From a virus: DNA of 26,243 nucleotides. Numbering within the stretch: position 1 is the first letter of the stretch; each line of letters starts with the position of its first letter. Both the position numbers and the translations under genes were made by a program. Under the pieces are notes generated by a model. It searched no databases and was not told the DNA's origin. It saw only the letters and a list, made by a program, of their open reading frames with translations. Shown here one piece after another: positions 1,275-22,826 of the stretch. The DNA lies in IMG/VR virus record IMGVR_UViG_3300035670_001115, positions 1 through 26,243 of that record; one strand, 5' to 3'.

Positions 1275-1277
1275 CTA

Positions 1278-4045: not shown

Positions 4046-4054
4046 GGAGAATAG

Positions 4055-5485: not shown

Positions 5486-5659
5486 ATGAGAATATATAAT
5501 GTGATAAACGATGAACTGAACAACTGCCAAATTATCTGGTATGACGAAAACGGATTCCGTATTTCATTCACCAATAAAGACCCTGCCAACTCAGACTACC
5601 AACGCTATCTGCGCTGGCTAGAAAATCCAGAGGCAGAAGAAAACGGCACAATCTCGTAG
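5486..5659 (+). CDS. Small protein after tail fibre, unknown function
   Basis: This 57-aa ORF (MRIYNVINDELNNCQIIWYD...) begins directly after the fibre TAA and ends four bases before the M15 peptidase gene. It is acidic with several aromatic residues. Its place corresponds to the 112-aa gene at 21007 in unit B, though I see no clear similarity. Small proteins in this place are often fibre chaperones or accessory tail proteins; that role is inference from position only. Confidence 0.55.
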   Translation: MRIYNVINDELNNCQIIWYDENGFRISFTNKDPANSDYQRYLRWLENPEAEENGTIS

Positions 5660-5663
5660 GAAT

Positions 5664-6203
5664 ATGGCAAAACTTTGCAAAGCAGGCCTCCAGCTCAGGG
5701 AGCAGATAGATGACGATTATCCTGATCGCGATAGGAAGTCTGATGGGTGGATTGCTGATTCTCGGCATCTTGCTAAAGGCACTTCTGACCATATACCAGT
5801 CGATGGAATCGTTAGAGCTTTAGATATTGATGCTGATTTATCAGCTCACAAAGAAGAGGCTTACGCGCTAGTTGAGAAGATTCGCAAATTAGCCAAGAAA
5901 GGCGATAAGCGGATTAAATATATTATTTTTGATGGAAAGATTATGAGTCCGATACTGGGATGGAAGCGCAGAACTTACAAAGGTTCTAACCCACACCGGT
6001 CTCATTTTCATATTTCATTTACAACTTTGGGAGACAAAGATGGCAGTTATTTCAACCTCGAAGGAGAAGCTAATGAGCGACCTAAAGAAAATGGCAGAGA
6101 GCTGGGCCAAGACATTTCTAGCAACGGCACTAGCGACTTATCTAGCAGTCGGCTTAGATGTCGATGCAATTGCCAATGCAGCTCTAGTATCAGTCTTGCC
6201 TAG
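5664..6203 (+). CDS. M15-type peptidoglycan peptidase (endolysin), unit A
   Basis: This 179-aa protein is a likely cell-wall endopeptidase of the M15 (VanY/L-Ala-D-Glu or D-Ala peptidase-like) group. Visible zinc-site candidates are H43 in GTSDHIPVDG, D54 or D56 in RALDID, and H114/H116 in NPHRSHFHISF, followed by GDKDG. The domain ends near residue 130. The remaining 49 residues are low-complexity, with a Cys cluster near residues 166-172, and are mostly read through the holin gene in another frame. The same stop position is kept in unit B. There is no signal peptide, so holin-dependent release is expected. Confidence 0.75.
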   Translation: MAKLCKAGLQLREQIDDDYPDRDRKSDGWIADSRHLAKGTSDHIPVDGIVRALDIDADLSAHKEEAYALVEKIRKLAKKGDKRIKYIIFDGKIMSPILGWKRRTYKGSNPHRSHFHISFTTLGDKDGSYFNLEGEANERPKENGRELGQDISSNGTSDLSSSRLRCRCNCQCSSSISLA

Positions 6204-6255
6204 CATAATCAACTGGCTCAACCCCAACTATGAGCGTTACGGTAAAGTCCGTTAA
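6073..6255 (+). CDS. Holin-like small membrane protein, unit A
   Basis: This 60-aa protein would permeabilise the membrane for the M15 lysin. It has a charged start (MSDLKKMAESWAK), a hydrophobic stretch from about residue 15 to 48, and a charged end (NPNYERYGKVR). I chose ATG 6073 and not the in-frame ATG at 6040 because AAGGAGAA lies just before 6073 and because the unit B copy has the same SD and start. It overlaps the 3' end of the M15 gene by 131 bases in another frame. Residues from IANAALVSVLPS to the end are identical in both units. Confidence 0.7.
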   Translation: MSDLKKMAESWAKTFLATALATYLAVGLDVDAIANAALVSVLPSIINWLNPNYERYGKVR

Positions 6256-6446
6256 TGCCAGCGGCTGAATTGGCCACCTTAGTAGCTTCAGTCTTAGGCT
6301 CAATAGCCTTGCTGATTGCTGGCCTTCGCTACATAATTAAATTGGAAAATATCCCCATAGTGTCGCGCCTTGATAAGATGGAGTCTCAGCTAGAATTAGC
6401 CCTAGCGAAGGGAGTCCGAAATGGCAACGCGAAAGCGCGTAAGTAA
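6255..6446 (+). CDS. Small membrane protein with C-terminal coiled coil, unit A
   Basis: This 63-aa protein has one N-terminal membrane segment (LATLVASVLGSIALLIAGL), followed by a charged helical tail (KMESQLELALAKGVRNG). It shares one base with the holin stop (TAATG) and could be a second holin, antiholin or spanin-like partner; there is no proof. The protein is identical in unit B although the DNA has many synonymous changes. The 3' end overlaps the next gene by 26 bases. Confidence 0.65.
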   Translation: MPAAELATLVASVLGSIALLIAGLRYIIKLENIPIVSRLDKMESQLELALAKGVRNGNAKARK

Positions 6447-6681
6447 GAAGCCAGTCAAGCGTCCAAAGAGACGCAGGACTACTAAAGAAACCCCATTAAC
6501 AAAGCTTGATTTCTGGGCTATTGCTGCCAATGAAGTTTATAAAGCTTGTCGCAGAGCAGGAATGGATGAGGGAACTGCTTTAGCCTTTGCTATGGATCGT
6601 AGCTCTTATCCCGATTGGATAGTGCCACTCGATGACCCAATGAGGAAGATTGGTTGGGAAGATGGAGAAGAGGACAACTAA
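6421..6681 (+). CDS. Basic-tailed conserved protein, unknown function, unit A
   Basis: This 86-aa protein has a strongly basic N-terminus (RKRVSKKPVKRPKRRR, residues 3-18) followed by a compact helical domain (LDFWAIAANEVYKACRRAG) and an acidic end (EDGEEDN). The basic arm suggests nucleic-acid contact. Position after the lysis genes and before a nuclease-like gene suggests a late packaging or DNA role, but I do not recognise the family. All 86 residues match unit B in spite of synonymous changes. Confidence 0.6.
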   Translation: MATRKRVSKKPVKRPKRRRTTKETPLTKLDFWAIAANEVYKACRRAGMDEGTALAFAMDRSSYPDWIVPLDDPMRKIGWEDGEEDN

Positions 6682-7064
6682 TCTACTTTCGAGAGGTTGA
6701 ACTCTTTGAGGCTCTTAAGTCGCTTTATCCAGACTTAACGCCCCTATCAGCGACCGACCGAGCAGATGGCATAACCCACAATTCCTATATAGAGCTTAAA
6801 TGCCGAAGAACCCACTACGATACTTTGATGATTGAGAAGAAGAAGTGGGATTATCTGGCCGATATAAGGGCTAGAACGGGCGCTAAAACCCTTTATATCA
6901 ATTCAACCCCTCACGGGGTCTATCAGTTCGATTTAGGGGCTCTAATCGAGCCTGAGTGGGCTTTGAAGCGGTTGCCTATAACTACTGACTTCGGCAATAA
7001 AGCCACCAATGAGCGACTTGCTGGTTTTTTAGATATACGACTCGCCGACTTATTGCTGGTCTAA
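6654..7064 (+). CDS. PD-(D/E)XK-like nuclease, unit A
   Basis: This 136-aa protein carries a nuclease-type core: D48 in RADGITHNS, then IELKCRRTHYD (E57, K59) and a following IEKKKWDYL helix, as in small PD-(D/E)XK resolvase-like and restriction-like enzymes. The substrate is unknown; debranching of replication or packaging intermediates, or host DNA damage, would fit. The start is uncertain: ATG 6654 overlaps the upstream gene, but in unit B a stop blocks the same region and GTG 22367 is the first usual start. The clear homology starts at FREVELFE. The protein is far less conserved between units than its neighbours. Confidence 0.6.
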   Translation: MGRWRRGQLIYFREVELFEALKSLYPDLTPLSATDRADGITHNSYIELKCRRTHYDTLMIEKKKWDYLADIRARTGAKTLYINSTPHGVYQFDLGALIEPEWALKRLPITTDFGNKATNERLAGFLDIRLADLLLV

Positions 7065-7126
7065 ATAGATTTAATCAAATACATTTAGCCCGTTAATCCA
7101 TTTAGGGATTACAGAACGGGAGCAAA
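7065..7126 (+). promoter_or_regulatory. Putative early control region: paired ATASATTTA repeats and hairpin, unit A
   Basis: One of the few non-coding gaps in the unit. It holds ATAGATTTA (7065-7073) and ATACATTTA (7079-7087), 14 bases apart. A hairpin follows: CCCGT (7089-7093) with ACGGG (7116-7120), and TAATCC (7094-7099) with GGATTA (7106-7111). The hairpin's right arm leads into the SD GGGAG at 7118-7122, so it could hide the ribosome site of the 66-aa gene. Unit B keeps paired repeats and a hairpin. A promoter is likely here but I cannot fix its -35/-10 boxes. Confidence 0.5.
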
Positions 7127-7327
7127 ATGGTAAATAAAGTAGCTCTTATTCGATTTGACTCGCAAGCTGGTGCTTGGACTGATGAGACAAATTGGGTTAA
7201 GGGATCAATAATCAGACGATTCGCTAAAGAGCGGATGGGTAAGAAACAACTCAGAGGCCGTTTATCTAAGGCTGAAATCTCTGCATACTGGCTTGATAAA
7301 TATGGGGTGAGCGCAGATGTTGCCTAA
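7127..7327 (+). CDS. Conserved 66-aa early protein, unit A
   Basis: This is the first gene of the early operon. The 66-aa protein is basic in the middle (RRFAKERMGKKQLRGRLSK) and may be helical. It has a V-to-I change at residue 2 as its only difference from unit B. I do not recognise the family. Its place behind a repeat/hairpin control region suggests an early regulator or host-takeover protein; this is inference. Confidence 0.6.
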   Translation: MVNKVALIRFDSQAGAWTDETNWVKGSIIRRFAKERMGKKQLRGRLSKAEISAYWLDKYGVSADVA

Positions 7328-7481
7328 TTTATCTGATGAAGCAGTAGTAGGAATAATCATTGGAGTTCCATTTATCGGCCTTTATATCTGGAGTTTATTT
7401 ACTTCAGCCAAAGCCAAAGCTTTTAATGAAGGCTATAAGAGAGGCAGGTCAAGTGTCCGATACACAGAAATCGTTAAGTGA
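7317..7481 (+). CDS. Small single-pass membrane protein, unit A
   Basis: This 54-aa ORF begins with ATG inside the 3' end of the 66-aa gene. It has an N-terminal hydrophobic segment (VVGIIIGVPFIGLYIWSLF, residues 10-28), followed by a basic tail (KAKAFNEGYKRGRSSVR). The GYKRG/FNEGYKRGR pattern after a membrane segment is common in small actinophage early membrane proteins of unknown role. The unit B copy at 23017 differs at only a few residues, so it is most likely a true gene. Confidence 0.6.
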   Translation: MLPNLSDEAVVGIIIGVPFIGLYIWSLFTSAKAKAFNEGYKRGRSSVRYTEIVK

Positions 7482-7770
7482 ATGGCTTGAAGAAGCTGGT
7501 GCTACCTTATTCGACCGAGGGATTGAGTATGGAGACCCGAGGCACAATTTTCTACGCATTTACAAAATCGCGAGAGCACTCGGTATTCAGCTCAGAGACC
7601 CATCTGAATTGGCAATTATTGCTATTGCAACAAAACTCTCAAGAATGGTGGAAAGTCCAGAGCGCGAGGATTCGTATCTCGATCTCATTGGATACGCCGC
7701 TATCTTGGGTCGATGCAGATTTTCTACACCAGAAGATTGGGACGACATTGAGTCTGACTCGCAATCATAA
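7453..7770 (+). CDS. DUF6378-like protein, unit A
   Basis: This 105-aa protein has the DUF6378 pattern: DRGIEYGDPRHNF (YGDP box), then a helix, IAIATKLSRMVESPEREDSYLDLIGYAAIL (K-R...D...D-GY). The family is common in phage early regions and of unknown role; the helical E/D layout resembles MazG-like nucleotide hydrolases. I chose GTG 7453 because AGGCAGG precedes it and unit B has the same GTG; an upstream start at 7426 is possible. It overlaps the membrane protein gene (29 bases) and probably the next one. A second frame stays open along it. Confidence 0.68.
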   Translation: MSDTQKSLSEWLEEAGATLFDRGIEYGDPRHNFLRIYKIARALGIQLRDPSELAIIAIATKLSRMVESPEREDSYLDLIGYAAILGRCRFSTPEDWDDIESDSQS

Positions 7771-8032
7771 TCAAAATCAATACTGCGATTACTGCAAATA
7801 TCGCTGGGGAGCAAATAAGAACGGCTGGGATTTAAGAGCTATGACTCCAGCAGTTTGGAAAGTCCAGAGCGAGACACCACTTCGAAAAGCACAGGTTAGG
7901 TTTTATTGCCAGCCTTGCGCCGATGAAGTTCAAAACTGGCCAGATGGCACATTTTATTCATTAAAAGAACAGTTAGACGATGCGATAAATGATTTCGCAG
8001 GGAGAGAGAAGTTAAATGTCGAATTACCTTGA
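7748..8032 (+). CDS. Zinc-ribbon protein 1, unit A
   Basis: The supported part is a Cys4 module: CDYC just after the DUF6378 stop and CQPC about 40 residues later, followed by a short acidic helix. The frame remains open upstream to GTG 7478. I place the start at TTG 7748, which would give 94 aa, because it is near the DUF6378 stop and is conserved; there is no strong SD, so the start is a guess. A DNA- or protein-binding role is likely; the family is unknown. The protein ends inside the start of the next gene. Confidence 0.5.
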   Translation: MSLTRNHNQNQYCDYCKYRWGANKNGWDLRAMTPAVWKVQSETPLRKAQVRFYCQPCADEVQNWPDGTFYSLKEQLDDAINDFAGREKLNVELP

Positions 8033-8603
8033 TGATTATGTTTCAGTTCAAGACCGATTAAAGGAGTTTATAAATGCTTATCCAGATTATCGAATCAAGA
8101 CTCATATCTTGGCGGAGTCGCTTGTGGCTAATTGTGATGTCTATATCATTAAAACTGAGTTATATCGCACTGAAGCTGACGCACACCCTTGGACTACAGG
8201 TTTATCCAGTGAGTCTAAATCCAAGCAATATGCACTCGAGCTTGCGGAAACTGGATCGCTGGGACGCGCACTTAACCTCGCTGGATACTTCGCTAAGACT
8301 AAACCGAGCCCAAAGAAGGCAATTGAAACGACTAAGCCAGCTCTTGCGGAATTCATAAAAGAGCAACGCCCTAATGATCCTGAGCCAATTGTTTGGGATG
8401 TAAGTGCAATCGCAAATCAATTAGGTGCAGAGATAATTGATGAGATACCGCTTTGCTCTGGTGGCGATGGTCCAATGGTGCTAAAGACTGGCACTAAAGA
8501 AGGCAAAGAATATAGGGGCTGGGTATGTCCAACACCTAAATCTGGTCATCCTGCTAAATGGATGCGTATTGGTTCAGATGGGCATTGGGTCTTTCAGAAA
8601 TGA
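8016..8603 (+). CDS. Rad52/Erf-like single-strand annealing protein candidate, unit A
   Basis: This 195-aa protein begins YLDDYVSVQDRLKEF and has a core with YRTEADAHPWTTGLSSES, KSKQYALELAETGSLGRAL and LAGYFAKT. The D-E-AETxxxGRAL arrangement is typical of actinophage proteins often linked to Erf/Sak/Rad52-like annealing proteins. A C-terminal domain (residues 150-195) has KTGTKEGKEYRGWVCPTP and ends HWVFQK, probably a small binding tail. As the only visible recombination protein, it could promote concatemer formation. I see four residue changes against unit B. The role is inferred from pattern and place. SD GGGAGAGAG. Confidence 0.55.
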   Translation: MSNYLDDYVSVQDRLKEFINAYPDYRIKTHILAESLVANCDVYIIKTELYRTEADAHPWTTGLSSESKSKQYALELAETGSLGRALNLAGYFAKTKPSPKKAIETTKPALAEFIKEQRPNDPEPIVWDVSAIANQLGAEIIDEIPLCSGGDGPMVLKTGTKEGKEYRGWVCPTPKSGHPAKWMRIGSDGHWVFQK

Positions 8604-8935
8604 AGCAAGATGCTCATCCATTTATCTGCTCAAATTGCAAGCTAGTTACTCCGCATATTGAGTTGCATAAATACGATTCAACAGATATTGCTGAAGCACC
8701 TGAGGAAGTTTGGCTAGTTGAGTGCCAAAGGTGTTTTATGCAAAGAATCATTTATCCATCAGATCGCGTAACTGCCAAAGAGGACGATATTGTCCGGTGC
8801 GACCAATGCGGTAAATGGAAGATGAAGGCAGCAAAGTGTCGAATATGCCGATTAGCTGCTGGATTGGAAGAAATATCAGAACGCTATTGGACTGGTAATG
8901 AGACGAAAGAAAGACCTTATAATGCCGCTTTATGA
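8600..8935 (+). CDS. Multi-zinc-ribbon protein 2, unit A
   Basis: This 111-aa protein begins with ATGA overlap of the annealing-protein stop. It has four Cys pairs (C10/C13, C42/C45, C67/C70, C80/C83), which would give two zinc sites, of which the last (RCDQCGKWKMKAAKCRIC) is the clearest. All eight Cys are kept in unit B. It may bind DNA, RNA polymerase or another protein; the family is not known to me. I rejected the upstream ATG at 8558 because it is inside the preceding gene and the ATGA start is shared. Confidence 0.62.
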   Translation: MKQDAHPFICSNCKLVTPHIELHKYDSTDIAEAPEEVWLVECQRCFMQRIIYPSDRVTAKEDDIVRCDQCGKWKMKAAKCRICRLAAGLEEISERYWTGNETKERPYNAAL

Positions 8936-9095
8936 ATATCGCTGCGATAAATGCGATGCGACAAAAGAGCAATACCAGCCTATAACCCTAAGAAATCTAG
9001 TAATCTGCGATAATTGCAGTGTTGCAATGTGGAGAGTTTGGAGACCCAATCCAATCCACTTCAAAGGCGAAGGCTGGGCAGGGAAGGACAAATGA
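8922..9095 (+). CDS. FmdB-like zinc-ribbon protein, unit A
   Basis: This 57-aa protein begins MPLYEYRCDKCD, the FmdB/CxxC-CxxC zinc-ribbon start, with C8/C11 and C29/C32 and an end rich in Trp/Gly (FKGEGWAG), typical of the family. FmdB-like proteins are putative regulators; the phage role is unknown. I chose ATG 8922 because the family starts here and unit B agrees. Both ends overlap neighbours. Confidence 0.72.
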   Translation: MPLYEYRCDKCDATKEQYQPITLRNLVICDNCSVAMWRVWRPNPIHFKGEGWAGKDK

Positions 9096-9274
9096 GCAAA
9101 CCCCATTCTATTAGATATATCCGTCAGCTGATGGAATGGGGATTTGATAAGGAGTTTATTGCTAAGGATTGCGGTATCAACCTGGAATCGCTTGAAACTA
9201 GGTTAAGAAGAGCTAAGGAAAGGGAGCGCAGGAATGGGAATCAAGGAACTGAGTCTGGAACTAGCGGCAGTTAG
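9092..9274 (+). CDS. Small helix-turn-helix protein, unit A
   Basis: This 60-aa protein has an HTH-like pattern: IRYIRQLMEWGFDKEFIAKDCGINLESLETRLRR (residues 8-41), followed by a charged tail. It is probably a DNA-binding early regulator; sigma-like or WhiA-like families are not excluded. The start is an ATGA overlap; unit B uses GTG at the same place. Its 3' end overlaps the next gene by 41 bases. Confidence 0.6.
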   Translation: MSKPHSIRYIRQLMEWGFDKEFIAKDCGINLESLETRLRRAKERERRNGNQGTESGTSGS

Positions 9275-9710
9275 TCTAATAGCTGATGAGGCTAAGAAGG
9301 CTAAAGATAGGCTGAGAGCGGCTTTACAGGCCGAAATGGACGCTATTGGGGCAGATAGGGTGAAGGCTGAATATGGCGATGATGTTATTGCCTATGTAAC
9401 TACTACTAAGCCTAAATTCAAGTGGGTTATCAAGTCAGATAAGCGATTTGTTGATTGGGTTAAAACTAATATCCCAAGCGAAATAGTTGAATCGGTAAGA
9501 GAGTCATCAGTTGATGCGATATTGGATAAGTTCAATTATCTGGACGATATAGTTATTGATCCGAATGGTGAAGTAATTGATTGGTTAGAAGGCAGTCAGT
9601 CAGAGCCTTATCTAATGACCAAGTTTCATAGTGATGGCAAAGAAACGCTGAAGAACGCGTTTCAATCAGGCCAGTTAGAATTTAAGAAGATATGGGAGTT
9701 AGAAGGATGA
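9234..9710 (+). CDS. Conserved actinophage early protein, unit A
   Basis: This 158-aa protein has an N-terminal helix (LAAVSLIADEAKKAKDRLRAALQ), then ADRVKAEYGDDVIAYVTTTKPKFKW, and a helical C-terminal half with SEIVE and KIWELE. The shape, a helical start followed by a beta domain and a short W-containing motif, is common in proteins beside recombination genes of actinophages. The function is unknown; host nuclease inhibition or DNA binding would fit. SD GGGAGCGCAGG precedes the ATG. The unit B copy is similar through its length. Confidence 0.6.
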   Translation: MGIKELSLELAAVSLIADEAKKAKDRLRAALQAEMDAIGADRVKAEYGDDVIAYVTTTKPKFKWVIKSDKRFVDWVKTNIPSEIVESVRESSVDAILDKFNYLDDIVIDPNGEVIDWLEGSQSEPYLMTKFHSDGKETLKNAFQSGQLEFKKIWELEG

Positions 9711-9784
9711 TTTGGTTTTGTATAGCTCTTATCCTGCTTGGTATTTATGTGCTTTATAAGGCAGGTGAGGCATTAGATGATTAA
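9707..9784 (+). CDS. Tiny membrane peptide, unit A only
   Basis: A 25-aa ORF begins with an ATGA overlap and is almost wholly a membrane segment (IWFCIALILLGIYVLYKAG). Unit B has no matching ORF: there the next gene starts directly. It has a good SD (AGAAGG) and its stop overlaps the next start, so it is probably translated. The role is unknown. Confidence 0.45.
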   Translation: MIWFCIALILLGIYVLYKAGEALDD

Positions 9785-9878
9785 TGATATATATCCAATC
9801 TTTAGAACGATTGATGATCATATGGATATGCCAGATGGGGTAGATATGAAACACCGCTCTGAACAGGACTTATGTTAA
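9777..9878 (+). CDS. Small acidic protein, unit A
   Basis: A 33-aa ORF (MINDIYPIFRTIDDHMDMPDGVD...). The unit B counterpart at 25404 shares DIYPI-R--DDHMD-PDGVD, so the short frame is under selection. It is acidic; the function is unknown. Overlap with both neighbours supports coupling. Confidence 0.5.
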   Translation: MINDIYPIFRTIDDHMDMPDGVDMKHRSEQDLC

Positions 9879-10291
9879 ATCGACTTGACTTAGGTGCTAC
9901 ACTCTCGCCACAGTGCGGGCGCGCAGCTGGCCCTGCAACAGAGGTTGAGGGGGGCCATTGCCTTCGCTTGATAGCGACAGGCGTTATAGCTGCTTTACTA
10001 TTGATATTTAATCCAAAGCCAGCAAATGCAGATATGAATCTTAAGCTTTATGCTTACAATAAAATGGATTGGTCAGAATTCCAATGTTATAACTGGTTAA
10101 TTTATAAAGAGAGTAGATGGAATCCAAAGGCTCGTAATGGATCACACTATGGCCTTGGTCAGATGCGTTCTACTTGGTATAGAGACCTTAGCCCTAAGAA
10201 GCAAATAGATGCACATATTAAATATATAAGACATAGATATAAATGCGCTTGCGATGCTTTGCATCACCTAGAGACTAAGGGCTGGCATTGA
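9872..10291 (+). CDS. Secreted lytic transglycosylase-like protein, unit A
   Basis: This 139-aa protein has a signal peptide (hydrophobic ATGVIAALLLIF, residues 36-46; likely cleavage after ANA at 53). A short lysozyme-like domain follows with catalytic Glu candidate E80 in YKESRWNPKARNG and then GLGQMRSTW, the SLT signature. The end ARNG...HHLETKGWH is typical of actinobacterial members. It would cut glycan strands after Sec export, helping entry, lysis or superinfection control. Unit B's mature part is almost identical but its signal peptide is quite different. Confidence 0.72.
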   Translation: MLNRLDLGATLSPQCGRAAGPATEVEGGHCLRLIATGVIAALLLIFNPKPANADMNLKLYAYNKMDWSEFQCYNWLIYKESRWNPKARNGSHYGLGQMRSTWYRDLSPKKQIDAHIKYIRHRYKCACDALHHLETKGWH

Positions 10292-10581
10292 GCAGACGCT
10301 ATAACTCCAGCTACTATCAGAAGACAAGACTTCAAGTATTACAAAGAGACTACAACACCTGCCACTACTGTGGCCTTGAAGCCAATACAGTTGATCACCT
10401 AATACCTATCAGCAAGGGTGGAACTGATGAAGCTTCTAATATGGTTGCTTGCTGCTCTCAATGCAATAGTTCTAAGCGAGATCGTATGACCCCCACCTTT
10501 TTTGAGCGCGCATCCAGACCCACGACCCCCATTGGGAAGATTTTCCCTGAAAATGGCTCGGCTAGGCACTATTCAGAATGA
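10288..10581 (+). CDS. HNH endonuclease, unit A
   Basis: This 97-aa protein has a zinc-bound HNH fold: C25/C28 in CHYCG, the D36-H37 in VDHLIPISKGG, N51 in ASNMVACCSQCN (C56/C59) and K63. HNH proteins next to the large terminase take part in cos cleavage and packaging in HK97-like phages. It starts at TTG in a TTGA overlap, and the same is seen in unit B. Its last 29 codons are identical in DNA to the unit B copy. No small terminase is seen, so HNH or another small protein may fill that role. Confidence 0.85.
   Translation: MSRRYNSSYYQKTRLQVLQRDYNTCHYCGLEANTVDHLIPISKGGTDEASNMVACCSQCNSSKRDRMTPTFFERASRPTTPIGKIFPENGSARHYSE
10486..10572 (+). repeat. 87-bp block identical in both units, candidate cos site, copy A
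   Basis: This block is identical to 26125-26211, although the flanks differ. It carries two GACCCCCA copies and one GACCCACG, and overlapping inverted repeats: GGGAA gatt TTCCC (10534-10547) and ATTTTCcctGAAAAT (10540-10554). It sits in the HNH 3' end, directly before the terminase. A cos/packaging site is the leading idea. Other explanations are recent recombination or an assembly/ligation joint. Confidence 0.55.
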
Positions 10582-12083: not shown

Positions 12084-13211
12084 ATGGGTGCTATAAGAGA
12101 TTTCCTATTTCCAGCAGTTGAGGCCAATCGCCCTATTGCCGTTACTGATGTTCAAGCAGCTTTAACACCAGTTCAGATTTCAGATTCAGTTTATAATATT
12201 CTCGGCGGTGCAACTAATACCACTCGCCAATTAGCAATGAGCGTTCCATCCGTTGCAAGAGCTCGCAATATTATTTGCGGAACTATCGGCTCATTACCTT
12301 TAACGACTTTTAACCGTATAACTGGCCAATATGTTGATCCACACAGAGTTATCAATCAGCCAGACCCAAGAGTTGCAGGATTTGTAATCTATTGCTGGCT
12401 TGCAGAAGATATATGGTTATATGGCGCTGGTTATGGTCAAGTCCTTGAGATGTATAGCGCAACTGATGGCGGTCGAGTAAGAGCTTGGACTCGCGTTAGC
12501 CCAGACCGCGTTACAGTTGATACAGATTTCCTTAACACCACAATTACTGGATATAAAGTTGATGGTAAGTCAGTTCCTCTTAGTGGCGTAGGTTCAATTA
12601 TAAGATTTGATGGCGGAGATGAAGGATTGCTTCACAGAGCTGGCAAAACAATTGCTGCAGCGGTATATCTTGAAAACGCAGCAGTAAATTATGCTAAAGA
12701 GCCTGCCCCTTCAATGGTATTAAAGTCTAATGGCACTAACTTAACTGCCGAAAGAATTTCATCCTTGCTAACTGCTTGGAAAACTGCTCGCCAATCTCGC
12801 TCAACTGCATTTCTAAATGCTGATGTGGATTTGCAGCAATTTGGTTTTGATCCTAAATCAATGCAACTTGCCGAAGCGCGTCAATATGTAGCACTAGAAT
12901 TAGCTCGGGCTTGTGGAATCCCTGCCTACTTCTTGAGCGCCGAAACGACTTCGATGACTTATTCAAACGCTGTGTCCGAGCGGCGCTCATTAGTAGATTT
13001 CTCACTTCGCCCAATACTTAAGGCAATTGAGGAACGCCTATCGTTACCGGACTTCACACCCAATCCAGTAATGACGCGCTTTGCACTTGATGACTTCCTA
13101 CGCGGTAACGCATTAGAGAGAGCTCAAGTTTATGAAATTCTAAACCGCATTGGCGCAATGAGCGTTGAGCAAATTCAGCGAGAAGAGGATCTAATCCCAA
13201 ATGAAGGTTAA
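12084..13211 (+). CDS. Portal protein (HK97 family)
   Basis: This 375-aa protein would form the dodecameric portal for DNA entry at one capsid vertex. It is slightly shorter than typical HK97-type portals. Supporting features are its place between terminase and protease-capsid gene, SVPSVARARNIICGTIGSLPL at residues 53-73, the DPRVAGF and LYGAGYGQVLEMY motifs, SRSTAFLNADVDLQQFGF (about 238-255) and ELARACGIPAYFL. The C-terminus overlaps the start of the next gene by 11 bases. SD is weak. Confidence 0.92.
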   Translation: MGAIRDFLFPAVEANRPIAVTDVQAALTPVQISDSVYNILGGATNTTRQLAMSVPSVARARNIICGTIGSLPLTTFNRITGQYVDPHRVINQPDPRVAGFVIYCWLAEDIWLYGAGYGQVLEMYSATDGGRVRAWTRVSPDRVTVDTDFLNTTITGYKVDGKSVPLSGVGSIIRFDGGDEGLLHRAGKTIAAAVYLENAAVNYAKEPAPSMVLKSNGTNLTAERISSLLTAWKTARQSRSTAFLNADVDLQQFGFDPKSMQLAEARQYVALELARACGIPAYFLSAETTSMTYSNAVSERRSLVDFSLRPILKAIEERLSLPDFTPNPVMTRFALDDFLRGNALERAQVYEILNRIGAMSVEQIQREEDLIPNEG

Positions 13212-14766
13212 TATGCCAATGGCAGTTACAGCTGCCGACACAATAAAGAGAACAATTACTGGAACTATTGTTACTTGGAATGAGCAAGGCAATACCTCAG
13301 TAGGCCCAACAGTATTCGCAGCAGATTCAATTGAAATGAAGCCAGTCAAGTTGCTTCTTGAGCACGACCGCACTCGCCCTATTGGCAAAATGGTCTCTCA
13401 CAACTTAACTGCTAATGGCATTGAAGCCACTTTTAAGATTGCAAATACTATGGCTGGAGAAGATGCTTTAGTAGAAGCCACTGAAGGCTTGCGCGATGGA
13501 TTTAGCGTTGGAGCCCAGATTAACGAATGGACAAACAACAAAGGCGTTATGCAGATTACCTCAGCAACCCTAGATGAAGTATCTCTAGTTACTGATCCTG
13601 CAATTGATTCTGCTCGCGTAAGCGAAGTAGCAGCATCAGAGAACGAAGCACCAAAAGAAGATTCTGATTTAGCAACCGCTGATTCAGAGAAACCAAACGA
13701 AGGAGACCAAGTGTCTGACACTACCGCTCCTGCTCCTGCCGTTGAAGAAGCGGTTGAAGCAGCTAAAGCAAATATGGTTGAGGCAGCTCGCCCAGCCTTT
13801 TACACAGCACCTCGCCTTGAGTTCACCAAGGCAAAATATCTTGAGAATAGCGTTCGCGCTAAACTTGGTGATGACGCAGCTCGCCAGTATGTTATGGCAG
13901 CAGATGACACCACCAGCAACAACGCTGGCTTAATTCCAACCCGCCAGCTAACTGAGGTTATCAATCCTCTATCAAATGCTGACCGCAGCACCATTGATGC
14001 AATTTCAACTGGAGTTCTACCAGATGCTGGAATGTCTTTTGAGATTCCAAAGATTACAGCTGTTCCAGTAGTTGCAGATGTAGATGAAGCATCAGCAATT
14101 GGCGAAACTGGAATGACCAATAACTTCCTAACAGTAAATGTTAATAAGTATGCTGGTGGCCAAACTTTCTCCGTTGAACTTCTTGACCGGAGCAATCCAG
14201 TATTCTTCGATGAGCTAGTTCGTCAAATGGAATATGCTTATGCTTTAGCAACAGATAAGTTCGTTGCTAACGCATTGCTTTCAAATGGACAAGCAGCTGC
14301 TACAGCAGCTGATAACACAGCCGCTGGAATTCTTACTTTCGTATCCGAAGCAGCCGCTGAGGTTTATAAGGATTCTTTAGGATTTGCTAGAAATCTTATT
14401 GTTACACCTGAGCAATGGGCAAAAATTATGAGTTACAACGATTCAGGTCGTCCGATTTATACTGCATCACAGCCACAAAACGCAGCTGGCGTAGCTAGCC
14501 CACAAACCCTTCGCGGAAATGTTGCTGGACTTGGACTCTATGTATCTCGCGCTCTTGGATCATTAACTGCTGAACATCCATCTTTGCCTCTTGGCGATGG
14601 TTCGATGATTGTAGTAAATCCAGATTCTTACACTTGGTATGAATCAAGCAGATTCCGCCTACAGACCAATGTAGCTCTTAATGGTCAAATTGAAGTTGCT
14701 TACTACGGCTATGGCGCACTTGCAGTCAAGGTCGCTGATGGAGCTTGCTACTTCAACAAAAACTAA
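13201..14766 (+). CDS. Prohead protease - major capsid protein fusion
   Basis: This 521-aa protein joins two head proteins. Residues 1-140 are an HK97-type (S78-like) prohead protease with H55 (LLEHDRTRPIG), S102 (DGFSVGAQI) and E126 (LDEVSLVTDPA), the expected catalytic triad. Residues 141-200 are an acidic, Pro/Ala-rich delta/scaffold-like linker. Residues from about 200 on are a HK97-fold capsid protein (GLIPTRQLTEVINPL, FARNLIVTPEQWAK, LRLQTN-like RFRLQTNVALNG). A start at ATG 13213 is also possible. Self-cleavage should separate the parts during maturation. An internal GTG (13711) may give extra capsid subunits. Confidence 0.9.
   Translation: MKVNMPMAVTAADTIKRTITGTIVTWNEQGNTSVGPTVFAADSIEMKPVKLLLEHDRTRPIGKMVSHNLTANGIEATFKIANTMAGEDALVEATEGLRDGFSVGAQINEWTNNKGVMQITSATLDEVSLVTDPAIDSARVSEVAASENEAPKEDSDLATADSEKPNEGDQVSDTTAPAPAVEEAVEAAKANMVEAARPAFYTAPRLEFTKAKYLENSVRAKLGDDAARQYVMAADDTTSNNAGLIPTRQLTEVINPLSNADRSTIDAISTGVLPDAGMSFEIPKITAVPVVADVDEASAIGETGMTNNFLTVNVNKYAGGQTFSVELLDRSNPVFFDELVRQMEYAYALATDKFVANALLSNGQAAATAADNTAAGILTFVSEAAAEVYKDSLGFARNLIVTPEQWAKIMSYNDSGRPIYTASQPQNAAGVASPQTLRGNVAGLGLYVSRALGSLTAEHPSLPLGDGSMIVVNPDSYTWYESSRFRLQTNVALNGQIEVAYYGYGALAVKVADGACYFNKN
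13711..14766 (+). CDS. Possible separate major capsid protein from internal GTG
   Basis: Inside the fusion gene, GTG 13711 is in frame and is preceded by AAGGAGA with GGAG five bases before the start, which is a better SD than that of the whole fusion gene. It would make a 351-aa scaffold-linker plus capsid protein (starting VSDTTAPAPAVEE) without the protease. This would let the phage make many capsid subunits for each protease, as is needed (hundreds of capsid copies against few proteases). Inferred from sequence only. Confidence 0.5.
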   Translation: MSDTTAPAPAVEEAVEAAKANMVEAARPAFYTAPRLEFTKAKYLENSVRAKLGDDAARQYVMAADDTTSNNAGLIPTRQLTEVINPLSNADRSTIDAISTGVLPDAGMSFEIPKITAVPVVADVDEASAIGETGMTNNFLTVNVNKYAGGQTFSVELLDRSNPVFFDELVRQMEYAYALATDKFVANALLSNGQAAATAADNTAAGILTFVSEAAAEVYKDSLGFARNLIVTPEQWAKIMSYNDSGRPIYTASQPQNAAGVASPQTLRGNVAGLGLYVSRALGSLTAEHPSLPLGDGSMIVVNPDSYTWYESSRFRLQTNVALNGQIEVAYYGYGALAVKVADGACYFNKN

Positions 14767-15811: not shown

Positions 15812-16213
15812 ATGCCAACTACAGTAATAACTGGGCGCGATGTAACCTTTACACTCGATAGCGCTGCTTATGACGCCCAGGCAACTAGCGCAGTCCTAAG
15901 CTGCGACACAATTATCGAGACCTATCAAACTCTTGATGGTCGCGCTTATAAGTCCGTTGATAAGCAATGGACATTCACAATTGAATTGCTACAGGATTGG
16001 GGAGCTGCTAGCTCACTATTCGAGGCAATGTGGGCTGATGCTGAATCAGCACCAAACACCACACTTGCAGTTTCATTTACTGCCGTAACTGGCGCAGTAT
16101 TTGCTTTCAATGTATTGCCAGTCTTTCCAGCAGCAGGCGGCGCAGCTCCAGGAGCGCTAACTGATACTTGGACGATGACTGTCGTTGGAACTCCAACAGA
16201 GACTTTCAGCTAA
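15812..16213 (+). CDS. Major tail (tube) protein, unit B
   Basis: This 133-aa protein is the second copy of the tail tube subunit at position 9. Residues IIETYQTLDGRAYKSVDKQWTFTIELLQDWG (about 34-64) are identical, and the rest is alignable. An SD (AGGAGACC) stands before the ATG. Here the head-tail genes in front are visible, so this copy confirms the expected connector, terminator, tube, chaperone order. It is intact. Confidence 0.87.
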   Translation: MPTTVITGRDVTFTLDSAAYDAQATSAVLSCDTIIETYQTLDGRAYKSVDKQWTFTIELLQDWGAASSLFEAMWADAESAPNTTLAVSFTAVTGAVFAFNVLPVFPAAGGAAPGALTDTWTMTVVGTPTETFS

Positions 16214-16234
16214 GAGATCGGAGCATCGGGAGCT

Positions 16235-16525
16235 ATGAAAATATCCATCACAATTAAATATAACTCTGGCGAATCAGTTACTTATCAGGCTGGCTTACCA
16301 GAATGGGCTAAGTGGGAACGCAAAACTGGTAAGTCGATTTATTCGATGAAAGATATTTCGGCTTATCAGCAAGCGGACTTCTTAGATCTTGCTTATTTTG
16401 CGTATAAGCGCGAAGCAGCTGGAAAGCCAACCAAGCCTCAAGAGATTTGGGAGCTAACAGTTGAAGAGATGACGATTGGAGATGAAAGCCCAAAAGTTAC
16501 GAGCCAGGAAGCATCAACCGACTAA
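16235..16525 (+). CDS. Tail assembly chaperone, short form, unit B
   Basis: The 0-frame 96-aa product of the second chaperone gene (gpG-like). It is longer than the unit A form by an insert around SMKDISAYQQADFLD. It keeps the YNSGE, KREAAGKP and PK-slip residues. The non-coding gap in front, with its doubled GGAGC/GGGAGC, is nearly identical to that before position 441. Confidence 0.8.
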   Translation: MKISITIKYNSGESVTYQAGLPEWAKWERKTGKSIYSMKDISAYQQADFLDLAYFAYKREAAGKPTKPQEIWELTVEEMTIGDESPKVTSQEASTD

Positions 16526-16632
16526 TAGTCGAAATAGCGATAGCAACTGGCATACCGATGACTTACTGGACAGACATCGACCAAGTTCTAACGGCGATAG
16601 AGATATTAAAGGAGCGTAGCGGTGGCAGATGA
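16235..16632 (+). CDS. Tail assembly chaperone, long (-1 frameshift) form, unit B
   Basis: Reading 16235-16495, then resuming at 16495, gives a 132-aa protein ending at TGA 16630-16632. The 45-residue extension (SYEPGSINRLIVEIAIATG...LTAIEILKERSGGR) has exactly the unit A length, and the same end pattern. It has no own start or SD. This is the gpGT-type form that connects tape measure and tube subunits. Confidence 0.82.
16489..16495 (+). promoter_or_regulatory. -1 frameshift slippery site CCCAAAA, unit B
   Basis: The heptamer is in the phase C CCA AAA and lies 27 bases before the 0-frame stop (16523-16525). It is conserved although the surrounding gene is diverged. Confidence 0.82.
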
Positions 16633-17089
16633 GTTACCAATCAGTTACGACAAACGCGAGCTCCGCTCCATCATTACTGCTTTTAAAGCGATGGATGACG
16701 AAGCCGTTAGCCAAGCTAAACGAGAATCTAGCGCTCTGGCTACTTACGCAGCAAATGAAATTAAAGCCTATGGACTTACTAGAACCTTTGGCCAAGAAGC
16801 AGTCCGCAGAATCACATCAGGCGTTAAAATCTCAGCAAGTTCCAAAATTGGCGAGTTCTCATACGGATTTGCTAGTCAGCGCTTTTCTGGTGGCGGTAGC
16901 ACAAAAGAACTCTGGGCAGGTTATGAATTTGGATCTAATCGCTTGCGTCAGTTCCCGAGAAGAACACCCAGCAAAGGTCGCGGCAATGCTGGCTACTTTA
17001 TCTACCCAACCCTTCGTAAGATTCAGCCTGAATTGATTAAGAAATGGCAAGAAGCATTTTCAAAGATATTGAAAGAATGGGATAAGTAA
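16622..17089 (+). CDS. HK97 gp10-like head-tail joining / tail protein, unit B
   Basis: This 155-aa protein is the second copy of the gp10-like gene (unit A at 813). It has the same GTG start behind AAAGGAGCG and the same conserved parts: RELRSIITAFKAMDDEAV, KIGEFSYGFASQRFSGG, FGSNRLRQFPRRTP and GYFIYPTLRKIQPEL. The last base is shared with the tape measure ATG (TAATG). Confidence 0.72.
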   Translation: MADELPISYDKRELRSIITAFKAMDDEAVSQAKRESSALATYAANEIKAYGLTRTFGQEAVRRITSGVKISASSKIGEFSYGFASQRFSGGGSTKELWAGYEFGSNRLRQFPRRTPSKGRGNAGYFIYPTLRKIQPELIKKWQEAFSKILKEWDK

Positions 17090-18468
17090 TGGCTGGCAGT
17101 AGAACACTTAAACTTTCAATTCTTGCTGATGTCGATGATTTAAAAAAGAAACTTGATACTGGCTCCAAAGAGGTTGAAGGCTTTGGCGGCAAAATGGAGA
17201 AATTCGGCAAAGTCGCAGCAGCAGCATTTGCAGCAGCAGCTGCAGCAGCTGCGGCTTATGCAGTCAAGCTAGCCGTTGATGGCGTCAAGGCAGCTATTGA
17301 AGATGAGGCTGCTCAGCTTCGTTTAGCTAATGCCCTTAAGAATGTTACTGGCGCAACTGAAGCCCAAATTTCAGCAATTGAAGAGCAAATACTCAAGACC
17401 TCTTTGGCTACTGGAGTTGCAGATGATGAATTGCGTCCAGCGCTTCAGCGCCTAGCAACTGCTACAGGATCTGTAACTAAGTCCCAAGATTTATTAAACC
17501 TAGCCTTAGATATTTCAGCTGCTACTGGTAAGAGCGTTGAAACAGTATCCAATGCCTTAGGTAAAGCCTATGAAGGCAATACAAGCTCTTTAACGCGTCT
17601 AGGTGTTGGTTTATCAGCTGCCGAGATAAAGACCCTTGGATTAGAAGGCACAGTAAAACAATTAGCCGAAACCTTTGGTGGCGCTGCAACAGTCCAAGCC
17701 AATACCTTTGAAGGTCAAATCCAAAGACTCAAAGTGGGTTTTGATGAGGCCAAAGAATCAGTAGGAGCTGCTTTGCTGCCTACTTTGCAAAGGCTTTTAG
17801 ATTATTTTATTAACACAGTTATTCCGAAGTTTATTGAATTTAAGGATGCAGCACTAAAGCCAGTTACCGATGCGATTGGTCGCAACAAAGATTCTTTGAC
17901 TACGCTTTATAACTTTATTAAAGATTTTGTTGTCCCAGTATTAATCAATAATCTTGGCGCAGCACTTAGCTTTATTGGAAAGGTCGCAGGTGGGGTTCTT
18001 GATGTTATTGGCTTTGTAGTCAATGGAATAAAGAGCGCAGTCAATTTTGCTATAGATGCAATTAATGTCTTAATTCGCGCTTATAATGCAGTTCCACTTT
18101 TGCCTAATGTTGCTACAATTTCTAAGCCATCATTCTCAGCTCCCAGCACTCCTAGCAGTTCTAGCGTTCCAAAAGTAGCAACTGCTCCAAGCCCAAGCGT
18201 TCCAGTAGCCCCTAAACCTTCAACAACACCTACTGCTCCTTCCGCATCTACGCCAAGTGCTCCATCAACCTTAGTTCCAAGCGGTAATGCAATTCCTTCT
18301 GGATTTAATGTTGCTGGCACTGTTGCAGCGAATCAGCAAGGCAATGTTGTAATCAATGTAAATGCTCCATCCGCTATTGATGAAGAAGGATTCACCAGAG
18401 CAGTTATTTTGGCCCTTAATCAGACTCAAGCCAGAACGGGTGGCGGCGCAAGCCAGCTAATTCTATGA
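17089..18468 (+). CDS. Tape measure protein, unit B
   Basis: This 459-aa protein is the second tape measure. The first 240 residues match unit A, including LSILADVDDLKKKL, the Ala-rich stretch and the VSNALGKAYEGNTSSLTRLGVGLS region. The middle is different: a hydrophobic segment (VLDVIGFVVNGIKSAVNFAIDAI, about 304-328) and then a Pro/Ser/Thr/Ala-rich linker (about 345-405). The last 35 residues (VVINVNAPSAIDEEGFTRAVI) again match unit A. It would give a tail slightly shorter than unit A's. Confidence 0.9.
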   Translation: MAGSRTLKLSILADVDDLKKKLDTGSKEVEGFGGKMEKFGKVAAAAFAAAAAAAAAYAVKLAVDGVKAAIEDEAAQLRLANALKNVTGATEAQISAIEEQILKTSLATGVADDELRPALQRLATATGSVTKSQDLLNLALDISAATGKSVETVSNALGKAYEGNTSSLTRLGVGLSAAEIKTLGLEGTVKQLAETFGGAATVQANTFEGQIQRLKVGFDEAKESVGAALLPTLQRLLDYFINTVIPKFIEFKDAALKPVTDAIGRNKDSLTTLYNFIKDFVVPVLINNLGAALSFIGKVAGGVLDVIGFVVNGIKSAVNFAIDAINVLIRAYNAVPLLPNVATISKPSFSAPSTPSSSSVPKVATAPSPSVPVAPKPSTTPTAPSASTPSAPSTLVPSGNAIPSGFNVAGTVAANQQGNVVINVNAPSAIDEEGFTRAVILALNQTQARTGGGASQLIL

Positions 18469-19709
18469 CCCTTTGGAATCCCGTATATCGCGTTAAGGTT
18501 AATGGATCAACAGTAACAAGCTCGACCCTTAGCGGACTTACTATTACTTCAGGCCGTCAAGATATTTATTCGCAGCCAACTGCAGGATATTGCAATTTGA
18601 CGCTGATTGAAACTAATGAATCAGCAGTCCCATTTGAAATTAATGACGCGGTTACAATTGAGGTTAAAGACTCAACTGCAACTTATGTAAATCTATTTGG
18701 TGGATTTATAACTGACCTAAATATCACAGTCCAGAATTCTGGCTCAACTGCGACCAGTCAGCAAATACGAATAACCGCCGTAGGGGCTTTAGCCCGACTT
18801 AATCGCGCCGTCTATATTGGCAACTTTGCTCATCAATTTGATGGAGACCGCATAGAAGAATTACTTAGCACAGTTCTATTTGACCAATGGAATGAAGTGC
18901 CAGCTGCCGAAACTTGGAACGGCTATGACGCGACTACTCAATGGCAAGATGCAGAAAATAGCGGATTAGGTGAGATTGATACTCCGGGCGATTATGAGCT
19001 CCATTCAGAAAATGGTTTAGACGATACAGTTTATAATTTGGCTTCTCGCTTTGCCACCAGCGGACTTGGCTACCTTTACGAAGATTCTCAAGGCCTCATT
19101 GGTTACGCTGATTCGACCCATAGATCCGAATATCTAGTTGCTAATGGCTATGTTGATTTAGACGGCAATCACTCTATCGGCCCTGGACTCTCGATTATTA
19201 AAAGGGCTGGAGATGTAAGAAATTCAATAACCTTGAATTACGGCACTTCAGGAGCAGAGGTTACAGATGAAGATTTGCAATCAATTCAGGATTATGGACT
19301 TCTAGCTTCTACCATATCCACCACACTTCGCAATCAAGGCGATGCCGAAGATCAAGCAGCCTTCTATCTGACTATTAGAGCCTACCCTCAATTTGCCTTA
19401 AGACAGATAACCTTTCCGCTAGCCAGCTCTGAAATTGATAATACTGATAGGGACAATTTATTAGGCGTATTTATGGGGATGCCTTTGAGCGTCAATAATC
19501 TGCCATCAAATATGGTTAATGGGACTTTTTTAGGATTTGTCGAGGGTTGGACTTGGACTGCCAGTTTAAATCAACTTAATCTTACAATGACGGTTTCACC
19601 GCTGGAATTTTCATTGCAAGCCTTCCGTTGGACTTCAGTCCCTTCGACCGAGTATTGGGCGTCAATTGACCCTAATTTGGACTGGGCCAACGCTACAATA
19701 GTGAGCTAA
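18465..19709 (+). CDS. Minor tail protein (distal tail / baseplate), unit B
   Basis: This 414-aa protein matches the unit A copy from end to end, except a one-residue gap near residue 265. Both keep the FDQWNEVPAAE and EGWTWTASLN motifs. An ATGA overlap links it to the tape measure. It should form the tail tip on which the fibres below are mounted. Confidence 0.8.
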   Translation: MTLWNPVYRVKVNGSTVTSSTLSGLTITSGRQDIYSQPTAGYCNLTLIETNESAVPFEINDAVTIEVKDSTATYVNLFGGFITDLNITVQNSGSTATSQQIRITAVGALARLNRAVYIGNFAHQFDGDRIEELLSTVLFDQWNEVPAAETWNGYDATTQWQDAENSGLGEIDTPGDYELHSENGLDDTVYNLASRFATSGLGYLYEDSQGLIGYADSTHRSEYLVANGYVDLDGNHSIGPGLSIIKRAGDVRNSITLNYGTSGAEVTDEDLQSIQDYGLLASTISTTLRNQGDAEDQAAFYLTIRAYPQFALRQITFPLASSEIDNTDRDNLLGVFMGMPLSVNNLPSNMVNGTFLGFVEGWTWTASLNQLNLTMTVSPLEFSLQAFRWTSVPSTEYWASIDPNLDWANATIVS

Positions 19710-19718
19710 AGGAGAACG

Positions 19719-20153
19719 ATGACTACCACCGCAATTTTAGGTATTACCATTCCAGATGATACCGATCTAGTTAAAGACGGCGCTTCGGCAATGAGGACAA
19801 TAGGCAATGGATTTGATGATGCTCTAGCGAAATTGACCTTAAACGCCCAGACTGCTACTTATACCGCAGTTTTAACAGACAACAGAAACAAGCTAGTAAC
19901 GATGTCCGTTGCTGGCGCTAATGATTTTTTAATACCAACAAATGCAACAGTTGCCTTTCCAATTGGGTCGGTAATTAATGTTATTCAAATTGGCGCTGGT
20001 CAAACAACTATTAAAGCCGTTACACCAGCAACTACTACAATTGCTTCAACTGGTGCTACTTCTACTGCGCCAAAATTAGCGGTGCAGTATTCGGCAGCTT
20101 CTTGCATTAAAGTTGCAACTGATACTTGGTATGTAGTCGGAGATATTGCGTAA
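19719..20153 (+). CDS. Short tail fibre / adhesin base, unit B
   Basis: This 144-aa protein shares only its N-terminal attachment part with the unit A fibre (TIPDDTDLVKDGASAMRTIGNGFDDAL, residues 10-36). The remainder is a short beta domain (TAVLTDNRNKLVTMSVAGAND...GSVINVIQIGAGQTTI...YVVGDIA), a pattern seen in small fibre tips. It probably links the tail tip with the Gly-rich adhesin encoded next (one-base overlap). Confidence 0.65.
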   Translation: MTTTAILGITIPDDTDLVKDGASAMRTIGNGFDDALAKLTLNAQTATYTAVLTDNRNKLVTMSVAGANDFLIPTNATVAFPIGSVINVIQIGAGQTTIKAVTPATTTIASTGATSTAPKLAVQYSAASCIKVATDTWYVVGDIA

Positions 20154-21007
20154 TGACCGTTCTCGGGATTATTGGTTCAATAAAAAAAATTCCAGTTGAT
20201 TACTTAGTTGTAGCTGGTGGCGGTGGCGGTGGTAATGATGCTGCTGGCGGTGGCGGAGCTGGCGGTCTGCGATCAACATTAGATGCAACTGGCGGTGGGG
20301 GAACATTAGAGAAATCTTTATTTATACGGCCTAAGCTTAATTTCACCGTAACAGTTGGCGCTGGTGGCGCGATTGGGGCAAACGGAAATAATTCCGTTTT
20401 TGCAACAATTACTTCAACTGCTGGTGGTGCTGGTGCTTCTTTTGATTTAAATGGTAGTGCTGGTGGCTCAGGTGGCGGTGGAGCTTGGTCAAATAACAAT
20501 GTCGTTAATAGAACAGGTGGCGCTGGAACTGCAAATCAAGGTTACGCAGGTGGCAATGGAACTACTGGTGTTGGGACAACTGGCGGTGGTGGTGGCGGCG
20601 GTGCTAATGCAGTTGGCGGCAACGCAGCTTCGCCTAATGGTGGCGGTGGCGGTAATGGAGTTGCTACTTCAATTTCTGGTTCTTCAGTAACTTATGCAGG
20701 TGGCGGCGGCGGCGGTGGGGGTAATAGTGGCTCACCAGCTTCTGGTGGAACTGGTGGCGGTGGAAATGGTCAAGGCCCATCAACTGCCGCAACTGCTGGA
20801 ACGGCTAACACAGGCGGAGGTGGCGGTGGCGCTAAAGCAGGTGGCGGCGGCGCAGGAGCAGCTGGTGGATCAGGCATTGTAATTCTTCGTTATCCAAATA
20901 CTTATACAATAACAATTGGTGCTGGATTAACGGCATCAACAGTAACAAGTGGGGCTAACAAAATTACTACAGTAACTGCTGGCACAGGAAATGTGAGCTG
21001 GTCATAA
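20153..21007 (+). CDS. Glycine-rich tail adhesin, unit B
   Basis: This 284-aa protein starts MTVLGIIGSIKKIPVDYLVVAGGGGGG. Residues 25-240 are rich in GGGG/GGxGG runs, and the domain ends GGSGIVILRYPNTYTITIG, as in the Gly-rich domains of many phage adhesins (polyglycine sandwiches such as that of S16 gp38). Between the Gly runs, variable loops could bind the receptor. The last 40 residues form a Thr-rich beta tail. ATG 20153, in TAATG overlap with the fibre base, is preferred over the upstream ATG/GTG. Nothing like it occurs in unit A. Confidence 0.7.
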   Translation: MTVLGIIGSIKKIPVDYLVVAGGGGGGNDAAGGGGAGGLRSTLDATGGGGTLEKSLFIRPKLNFTVTVGAGGAIGANGNNSVFATITSTAGGAGASFDLNGSAGGSGGGGAWSNNNVVNRTGGAGTANQGYAGGNGTTGVGTTGGGGGGGANAVGGNAASPNGGGGGNGVATSISGSSVTYAGGGGGGGGNSGSPASGGTGGGGNGQGPSTAATAGTANTGGGGGGAKAGGGGAGAAGGSGIVILRYPNTYTITIGAGLTASTVTSGANKITTVTAGTGNVSWS

Positions 21008-21345
21008 TGGCGCATTACGCTTTTTTAGATAAAAACAATTTGGTAACTGAAGTTATCGTAGGCGTAGATGAAGATGAACTAATTGACGGTTTAAATCCTG
21101 AAATATGGTATGCGAATTTTAAAGGACAAACCTGCAAGCGGACTTCATACAATAATAAAATTCGGAAACAATATGCTGGTATTGGATATAAATATGATGA
21201 AATCGCTGATGTATTTATAGCTCCTAAACCTTATGACTCTTGGTCATTAAATGAAAATTTTGATTGGGAAGCACCCGTTGCAAAGCCAGACGGTTTTTAT
21301 GTCTGGGATGAAAATAACCTAAATTGGGTAGAAATAGATGGCTAG
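21007..21345 (+). CDS. Tail accessory / fibre-associated protein, unit B
   Basis: This 112-aa protein (MAHYAFLDKNNLVTEVIVGVDEDE) has the pattern of a family of small proteins encoded after phage fibres: F-LD-NN-V--VIVG at the start, RTSYNNKIRKQYAGIGYKYDEIADVFI in the middle, and W-DENNLNWVE at the end. The function is unknown; a tail or virion component is likely. It overlaps the adhesin (TAATG) and the M15 gene (8 bases). Confidence 0.6.
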   Translation: MAHYAFLDKNNLVTEVIVGVDEDELIDGLNPEIWYANFKGQTCKRTSYNNKIRKQYAGIGYKYDEIADVFIAPKPYDSWSLNENFDWEAPVAKPDGFYVWDENNLNWVEIDG

Positions 21346-21877
21346 ATTATGCGCAGCAGGTATTCAACTTCGGGAGCAAATTGATGACGATTATCCTGAT
21401 CGCGATAGGAAGTCTGACGGCTGGATTGCTGATGCTCGTCACCTCGCTAAGAGCACTTCTGACCATATACCAAGAGATGGAATCGTTAGAGCTATAGATA
21501 TTGATTCTGACCTATCGGCACATAAAGAAGAAGCTTATGCGCTGGTCGAGAAGATTCGCAGGTTAGCAAAGAACGGCGACAAAAGAATTAAATACATTAT
21601 CTTTGATGGCAAGATAATGAGTCCAATATTGGGATGGAAGCGCAGATCTTACAGAGGCGCAAATCCGCACCGCTCACATTTCCATATTTCATTTACAACC
21701 TTGGGAGACAAAGATGGCAGTTATTTCGAACTCGAAGGAGATACTAATGAAAGACCTAAAAAAAGCCGCCGAAAGCTGGGGCAAAGCATTTCTAGCAGCA
21801 GCACTAGCGACTTATCTAGCGGTGGGATTCGACCCTGCTGCCATTGCAAATGCAGCTCTAGTATCAGTCTTGCCTAG
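21338..21877 (+). CDS. M15-type peptidoglycan peptidase (endolysin), unit B
   Basis: This 179-aa protein is of the same length as the unit A enzyme and keeps the putative zinc residues (H43 in TSDHIPRDG, D54/D56, H114/H116 in NPHRSHFHIS). The tail beyond residue 140 differs at about a third of positions, but keeps the Cys cluster and the same end SSSISLA. It overlaps the holin gene by 131 bases, as in unit A. Confidence 0.75.
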   Translation: MARLCAAGIQLREQIDDDYPDRDRKSDGWIADARHLAKSTSDHIPRDGIVRAIDIDSDLSAHKEEAYALVEKIRRLAKNGDKRIKYIIFDGKIMSPILGWKRRSYRGANPHRSHFHISFTTLGDKDGSYFELEGDTNERPKKSRRKLGQSISSSSTSDLSSGGIRPCCHCKCSSSISLA

Positions 21878-21929
21878 CATCATCAACTGGCTCAACCCTA
21901 ACTACGAGCGTTACGGCAAAGTCCGTTAA
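21747..21929 (+). CDS. Holin-like small membrane protein, unit B
   Basis: This 60-aa protein starts at ATG 21747 behind AAGGAGATACTA. It has the same layout as the unit A copy: a charged start, a hydrophobic body and a charged end. Differences occur only in the first 30 residues; the second half is identical. It is the frame better conserved in the overlap with the M15 gene. Confidence 0.7.
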   Translation: MKDLKKAAESWGKAFLAAALATYLAVGFDPAAIANAALVSVLPSIINWLNPNYERYGKVR

Positions 21930-22355: not shown

Positions 22356-22366
22356 TTTTCCGCGAA

Positions 22367-22762: not shown

Positions 22763-22826
22763 ATACATTTACCTTTAATACATTTAACCTACTAAATCCA
22801 TTTCGAGGGTTTAGAAGGGAGCATAA
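22763..22826 (+). promoter_or_regulatory. Putative early control region: paired ATACATTTA repeats and hairpin, unit B
   Basis: ATACATTTA occurs at 22763-22771 and 22778-22786, 15 bases apart. A hairpin follows: CTAAATCC (22792-22799) with GGGTTTAG (22807-22814), with one T-G pair. The SD AAGGGAG (22815-22821) is directly behind it. Layout is the same as in unit A, but stem bases differ in a pairing-preserving manner. Confidence 0.5.

Follow-up and report, generated by a model that had tools for sequence, protein, structure and literature searches.

The protease-capsid fusion gene

The window, which is the whole stretch of 26,243 nucleotides analysed here (positions 1 to 26,243 of IMG/VR virus record IMGVR_UViG_3300035670_001115), carries a protease-capsid fusion gene flanked by genes for the portal and the head-tail connector. 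The phage genome unit to which it belongs is about 15-17 kb long, and the genomes of isolated relatives measure 14.3-17.7 kb. The fusion gene begins inside the end of the portal gene, with an overlap of 11 nt, and the features of the locus are collected in Table 1. The frame is free of stops from end to end and both Pfam domains were found in it, in agreement with the single frame of 521 codons for protease and capsid described in the initial annotation. The protease residues named there also hold: across 46 diverse homologues H55 and S102 never vary, and conservation of E126 is at least 90%. PHROG 2263 (major head protein) spans residues 11-513 of the fusion protein.

Table 1. Features of the portal and protease-capsid fusion genes, in positions of the window
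Feature	Position	Strand	Details
Portal gene	12084-13211		Basis PF04860
Weaker Shine-Dalgarno (SD) of the full-length start (13201), AGAGGA	13184..13189	+	11-nt spacing; -6.1 kcal/mol
Protease-capsid fusion ORF	13201..14766	+	521 aa, 55.3 kDa
Peptidase_S78 prohead protease domain, residues 18-146	13252..13638	+	Pfam PF04586, E 5.5e-10; compact in AF2 model
Predicted catalytic residues	H55 13363-13365; S102 13504-13506; E126 13576-13578	+	
Disordered linker, residues 146-205	13636..13815	+	Acidic, then Pro/Ala/Glu-rich; pLDDT <50 (AlphaFold model)
Internal SD, AAGGAG	13700..13705	+	SD energy -9.6 kcal/mol; conserved in relatives
Internal in-frame GTG start, codon 171	13711..13713	+	Conserved in relatives
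Predicted second product, scaffold-capsid protein	13711..14766	+	351 aa, 37.3 kDa; inferred from conserved start
Two predicted helices, residues 210-221 and 225-235	13828..13905	+	AF2 model
HK97-fold major capsid domain, residues 259-507	13975..14721	+	Phage_capsid_4, PF25209

An AlphaFold model of the fusion protein, built from 38 sequences and with a mean pLDDT of 72.8, presents a compact protease (residues ~15-145), a disordered stretch (146-205), helices (210-235), a disordered arm and, from residue ~257, an HK97-type capsid. In Foldseek, the capsid part of the model matches the capsids of HK97 (1ohg, E 1.7e-11) and D3 (9ous, E 3.4e-12). Residues 146-234 have a pI of 4.4, and the modelled helices at residues 210-235 are a possible delta or scaffold segment. 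A sequence search of solved structures returned no close relative giving a mature N-terminus for the fusion capsid.

A predicted internal start within the linker

The initial annotation had placed a GTG at 13711, five bases behind GGAG, and this was confirmed: the sequence is ACGAAGGAGACCAAGTGTCT, bases 13698-13715 read CGAAGGAGACCAAGTGTC, and the GTG is in frame. It had also been placed exactly at the start of the linker, which needs correction, as codon 171 falls within the disordered segment of the AlphaFold model. SD pairing reaches -9.6 kcal/mol at the internal site versus -6.1 kcal/mol at the annotated start, and the other in-frame internal candidates are weaker, the next best being codons 5 and 7 (-4.2), followed by -3.3. 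Folding of the -30..+30 region amounts to -11.7 kcal/mol around the internal start versus -5.9 kcal/mol around the main start, and this stronger fold could lower initiation there. The window contains 11 instances of the pattern AAGGAG-N4-8-RTG, whereas shuffles predict 2.7; many of these instances are real gene starts and a few are intragenic. A single site is weak evidence because of this over-representation, and its significance was therefore judged by conservation in relatives.

In a close family of 81 sequences, 73-97% identical to the window, the string GAA GGA GA[CA] CAA GTG is retained, with GAA in 80/81, GGA in 81/81 and GTG in 81/81. The codon for Val171 is GTG in all 71 distinct full-length close relatives, while at 20 other invariant valine columns of these relatives GTG is rare and never fixed, the codons being mostly GTT, GTA or GTC; GTG is the least used valine codon in the fusion gene. 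When a broader set of 45 sequences was compared with the window at the nucleotide level, identity over the five SD-start codons came 8th among 519 windows, despite their position in the disordered linker. The close set is strong but not decisive by itself, because several neighbouring linker codons are likewise invariant among the closest relatives.

The amino acids EG[DE]QVSDTT at this place are also conserved among close relatives, as expected if the gene produced only a 1:1 polyprotein, whose protease withstood full occupancy and removed itself by cleavage, and if this peptide served for cleavage or docking. Large head polyproteins are known elsewhere, the Gifsy-2 protease-scaffold-capsid protein being one. 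The HK97 scaffold-capsid protein is another (PMC5513430). An exclusively 1:1 polyprotein is nevertheless unlikely, given that the codon for Val171 is fixed as the rarest valine codon of the gene, and given that in relatives beyond the close family the peptide is replaced completely while the SD and start are kept.

Conservation of the internal start across distant fusions

A wide sample of 181 complete fusions, including those of annotated phages, was sorted into 20 clusters at 50% identity, which are phylogenetically not fully independent. A canonical SD with an in-frame ATG or GTG lies within the protease-capsid linker of 173 of the 181 fusions; retention of the internal SD in relatives, the check put forward with the initial annotation, is thus borne out near and far. 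The family of the window has GTG as start codon, while ATG stands in this place in Decurro, PoRanda, RRH1, GMA5 and others; the site shifts from +9 to +77 codons past the protease as linker length and sequence differ, and the peptide at the site changes fully among relatives (RKEAVM, EDTPNM, EEDVTM, EGTPAM, IEEIEM). A capsid precursor from this start would begin at Met160 in Decurro (MTVEEM) and at Met166 in PoRanda (MNDEQE). Since position, start codon and peptide vary and the SD-start pair stays, it is the start that is conserved and not the peptide. A constant SD-start arrangement is what selection for initiation would predict from these sequences, and is not what selection for a peptide would predict.

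The best in-frame linker site outranks all other in-frame sites of the gene in 15 of 20 cluster representatives. Strong canonical sites occupy 19/2043 linker codons versus 3/7998 codons elsewhere in the genes, a 25-fold difference in density (Fisher p 5.5e-11), and the best in-frame site is stronger than those of the +1 frame (p 1.9e-6) and the +2 frame (p 8.6e-5). Permutation of the linker codons gave a combined p of 3.6e-9, but strictly synonymous re-drawing gave a combined p of only 0.01. The synonymous test is weak because methionine has a single codon and Glu-rich linkers readily yield SD-like strings, and as it left the matter undecided, the assessment was based on codon permutation together with controls in the other frames and elsewhere in the genes.

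Wherever a cluster has the motif, it stands at a domain boundary, which would also suit a slowing of elongation at an SD-like sequence, giving the protease time to fold ahead of capsid synthesis, with no initiation taking place. Such pausing is very improbable, as it would have no need of an in-frame start codon at 5-8 nt spacing, whether a fixed GTG or an ATG in its stead, and out-of-frame starts are not enriched. Chance resemblance of acidic linkers rich in GAA, GAG and GGA to SD sites is the least credible reading of all, for although synonymous re-draws often recreate the site and the window has an overall excess of such motifs, it is opposed by the composition-preserving codon permutation, by the excess over the rest of the gene that the +1 and +2 frames lack, and by the GTG common to all 71 relatives.

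The internal site is not universal, because no site above threshold was found in the linkers of 8 of the 181 fusions (L157, L159, Emperor, SallySpecial, Yavru, BlueFeather, Whytu and L144). Weaker linker sites are present in BlueFeather (GGAAACACCCGCA-ATG, -5.8) and in Yavru and Whytu (-4.0). The fusions of the Gordonia phage Emperor (L172:1051-2910) and of L177 have no capsid start in the linker; instead, a strong SD-ATG (GAAAGGACCCCACC-ATG, -9.5) comes immediately ahead of the protease and follows an N-terminal extension. This pre-protease site matches an ATG noted ahead of the protease in EpicDab, a relative whose N-terminal extension has been proposed to be holin-like (PMC9671378). Scans of genome contigs gave one prophage only. 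In a Corynebacterium senegalense prophage (L161:2856-4577, L188), the protease and the capsid occupy separate frames, and the protease ORF runs on to end in an ATGA overlap at the first start of the capsid frame; this may be a decayed prophage, a natural split or a frameshift.

A second superfamily of fusions, of about 650-750 residues, occurs in Arthrobacter cluster AU, Gordonia, Streptomyces, Curtobacterium and Lactococcus 1706 (L189:1009-3165 and L190-L275), and is reported to have little or no similarity to the AN type (PMC5513430). Among 87 members, the best site lies mostly where the capsid domain begins (QEGxxM, about codon 306), and a second frequent site lies near codon 240; in ScienceWizSam gp14 the strongest internal site is codon 241. 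At the 306 site the glutamate codon is GAA in 44/45 genes versus 17.1 expected from codon usage, and 2-4 residues separate Gly and Met. Near codon 240, 16/27 representatives have a strong in-frame site versus 8 in the +1 frame, an excess that is less clear-cut. Nested translation might be the rule for protease-capsid fusions in both superfamilies, and the ORF of AU, Streptomyces and 1706 phages might give three nested proteins (protease-scaffold-capsid, scaffold-capsid and capsid) through the conserved starts at ~240 and ~306, as placed in ScienceWizSam gp14, with SD strength alone setting the ratios of protease, scaffold and capsid; this extension is tentative, and we hold it somewhat less probable than its opposite.

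Two probable nested products and comparison with known systems

The conservation of the internal start makes it very probable that one message of the window gene specifies two nested in-frame proteins, the full protease-linker-capsid protein and, in excess, a scaffold-capsid protein from GTG 13711. An internal start for the capsid alone had been suggested in the initial annotation; its SD and start codon are conserved, but the product would not be a bare capsid, having ~64-86 extra N-terminal residues. As these residues include two predicted helices before the capsid fold, the internal product probably includes the delta or scaffold segment. Relief of the stoichiometry problem posed by a 1:1 fusion, the rationale originally offered, is plausible. 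Ribosomes entering at 13201, where the start overlaps the portal gene and the SD is weaker, would make few protease-linker-capsid molecules, and independent entry at GTG 13711 through AAGGAG would make many scaffold-capsid molecules without protease. Because the stronger internal SD would favour the capsid form, the prohead would consist mainly of capsid-only subunits with a protease-bearing minority, and because the capsid domain is common to both products, the protease would be built into the shell lattice. It would then be held inside the shell until it cut itself and the N-terminal segments away.

The arrangement resembles HK97 gp4 and gp5, in which an S78-type protease is followed by an N-terminally extended HK97-fold capsid (with the delta segment in gp5); HK97 uses two genes, whereas the window has one open frame with a start embedded where the start of a capsid gene would be. 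In Gifsy-2, a tripartite capsid gene joins protease, scaffold-like and capsid regions, as does the fusion gene of the window, although the Gifsy-2 protease is ClpP-like. Phage lambda makes nested protease products, C and Nu3, with an internal in-frame start for the scaffold. The likeness to C/Nu3 (described in part in PMC5513430) lies in two nested in-frame products, of which the short one lacks the protease, so dosing the head protease. It differs in that the internal product of lambda is a scaffold, capsid E has a separate gene and the protease family is another; a lambda-like stand-alone scaffold with a separate capsid gene was not found at this locus, where the internal frame continues through the capsid domain to 14766.

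Protease-capsid fusion in actinophages is already known (PMC5513430). The fusions of Arthrobacter AN/AM/AU, Gordonia, Microbacterium and Rhodococcus RRH1 phages share gene and domain order and PHROG 2263 with the window, whose protein aligns to those of Decurro (41% over residues 3-150), Schiebs and PoRanda, but each is annotated as a single CDS without an internal capsid start. No such start is annotated in the fusion records searched, and no paper on one in these fusions was found among open-access articles (subscription literature lay outside the search), the closest being the ATG of EpicDab (PMC9671378). Within these papers and records, the conserved internal capsid start appears to be new. 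Hundreds of sequenced phages carry the single-fusion annotation. Use of the internal start would mean that their most abundant virion protein is mis-annotated, and would remove the puzzle of a shell assembled from subunits that each carry a protease. It also suggests a way for such fusions to originate, through loss of a stop codon with the capsid's start retained.

Most of the window is made up of a tandem pair at 9-10581 and 15812-26220, which are diverged copies (71-92% identical, at a spacing of about 15.7 kb) of a tail-to-HNH module, with a single TerL-portal-capsid block between them. The tandem unit is as long as one genome of related phages, so that two readings of the record are left: a chimera of strains joined at the head block they share, or a genuine dimer or tandem provirus. 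AAGGAG stands 6-7 nt before the in-frame ATGs at 6073 and 21747 (window 6061-6075 and 21735-21749), suggesting that the small holin-like ORFs, mechanically called from 6040 and 21714, in fact begin at these ATGs, inside the upstream endolysin-like ORF.
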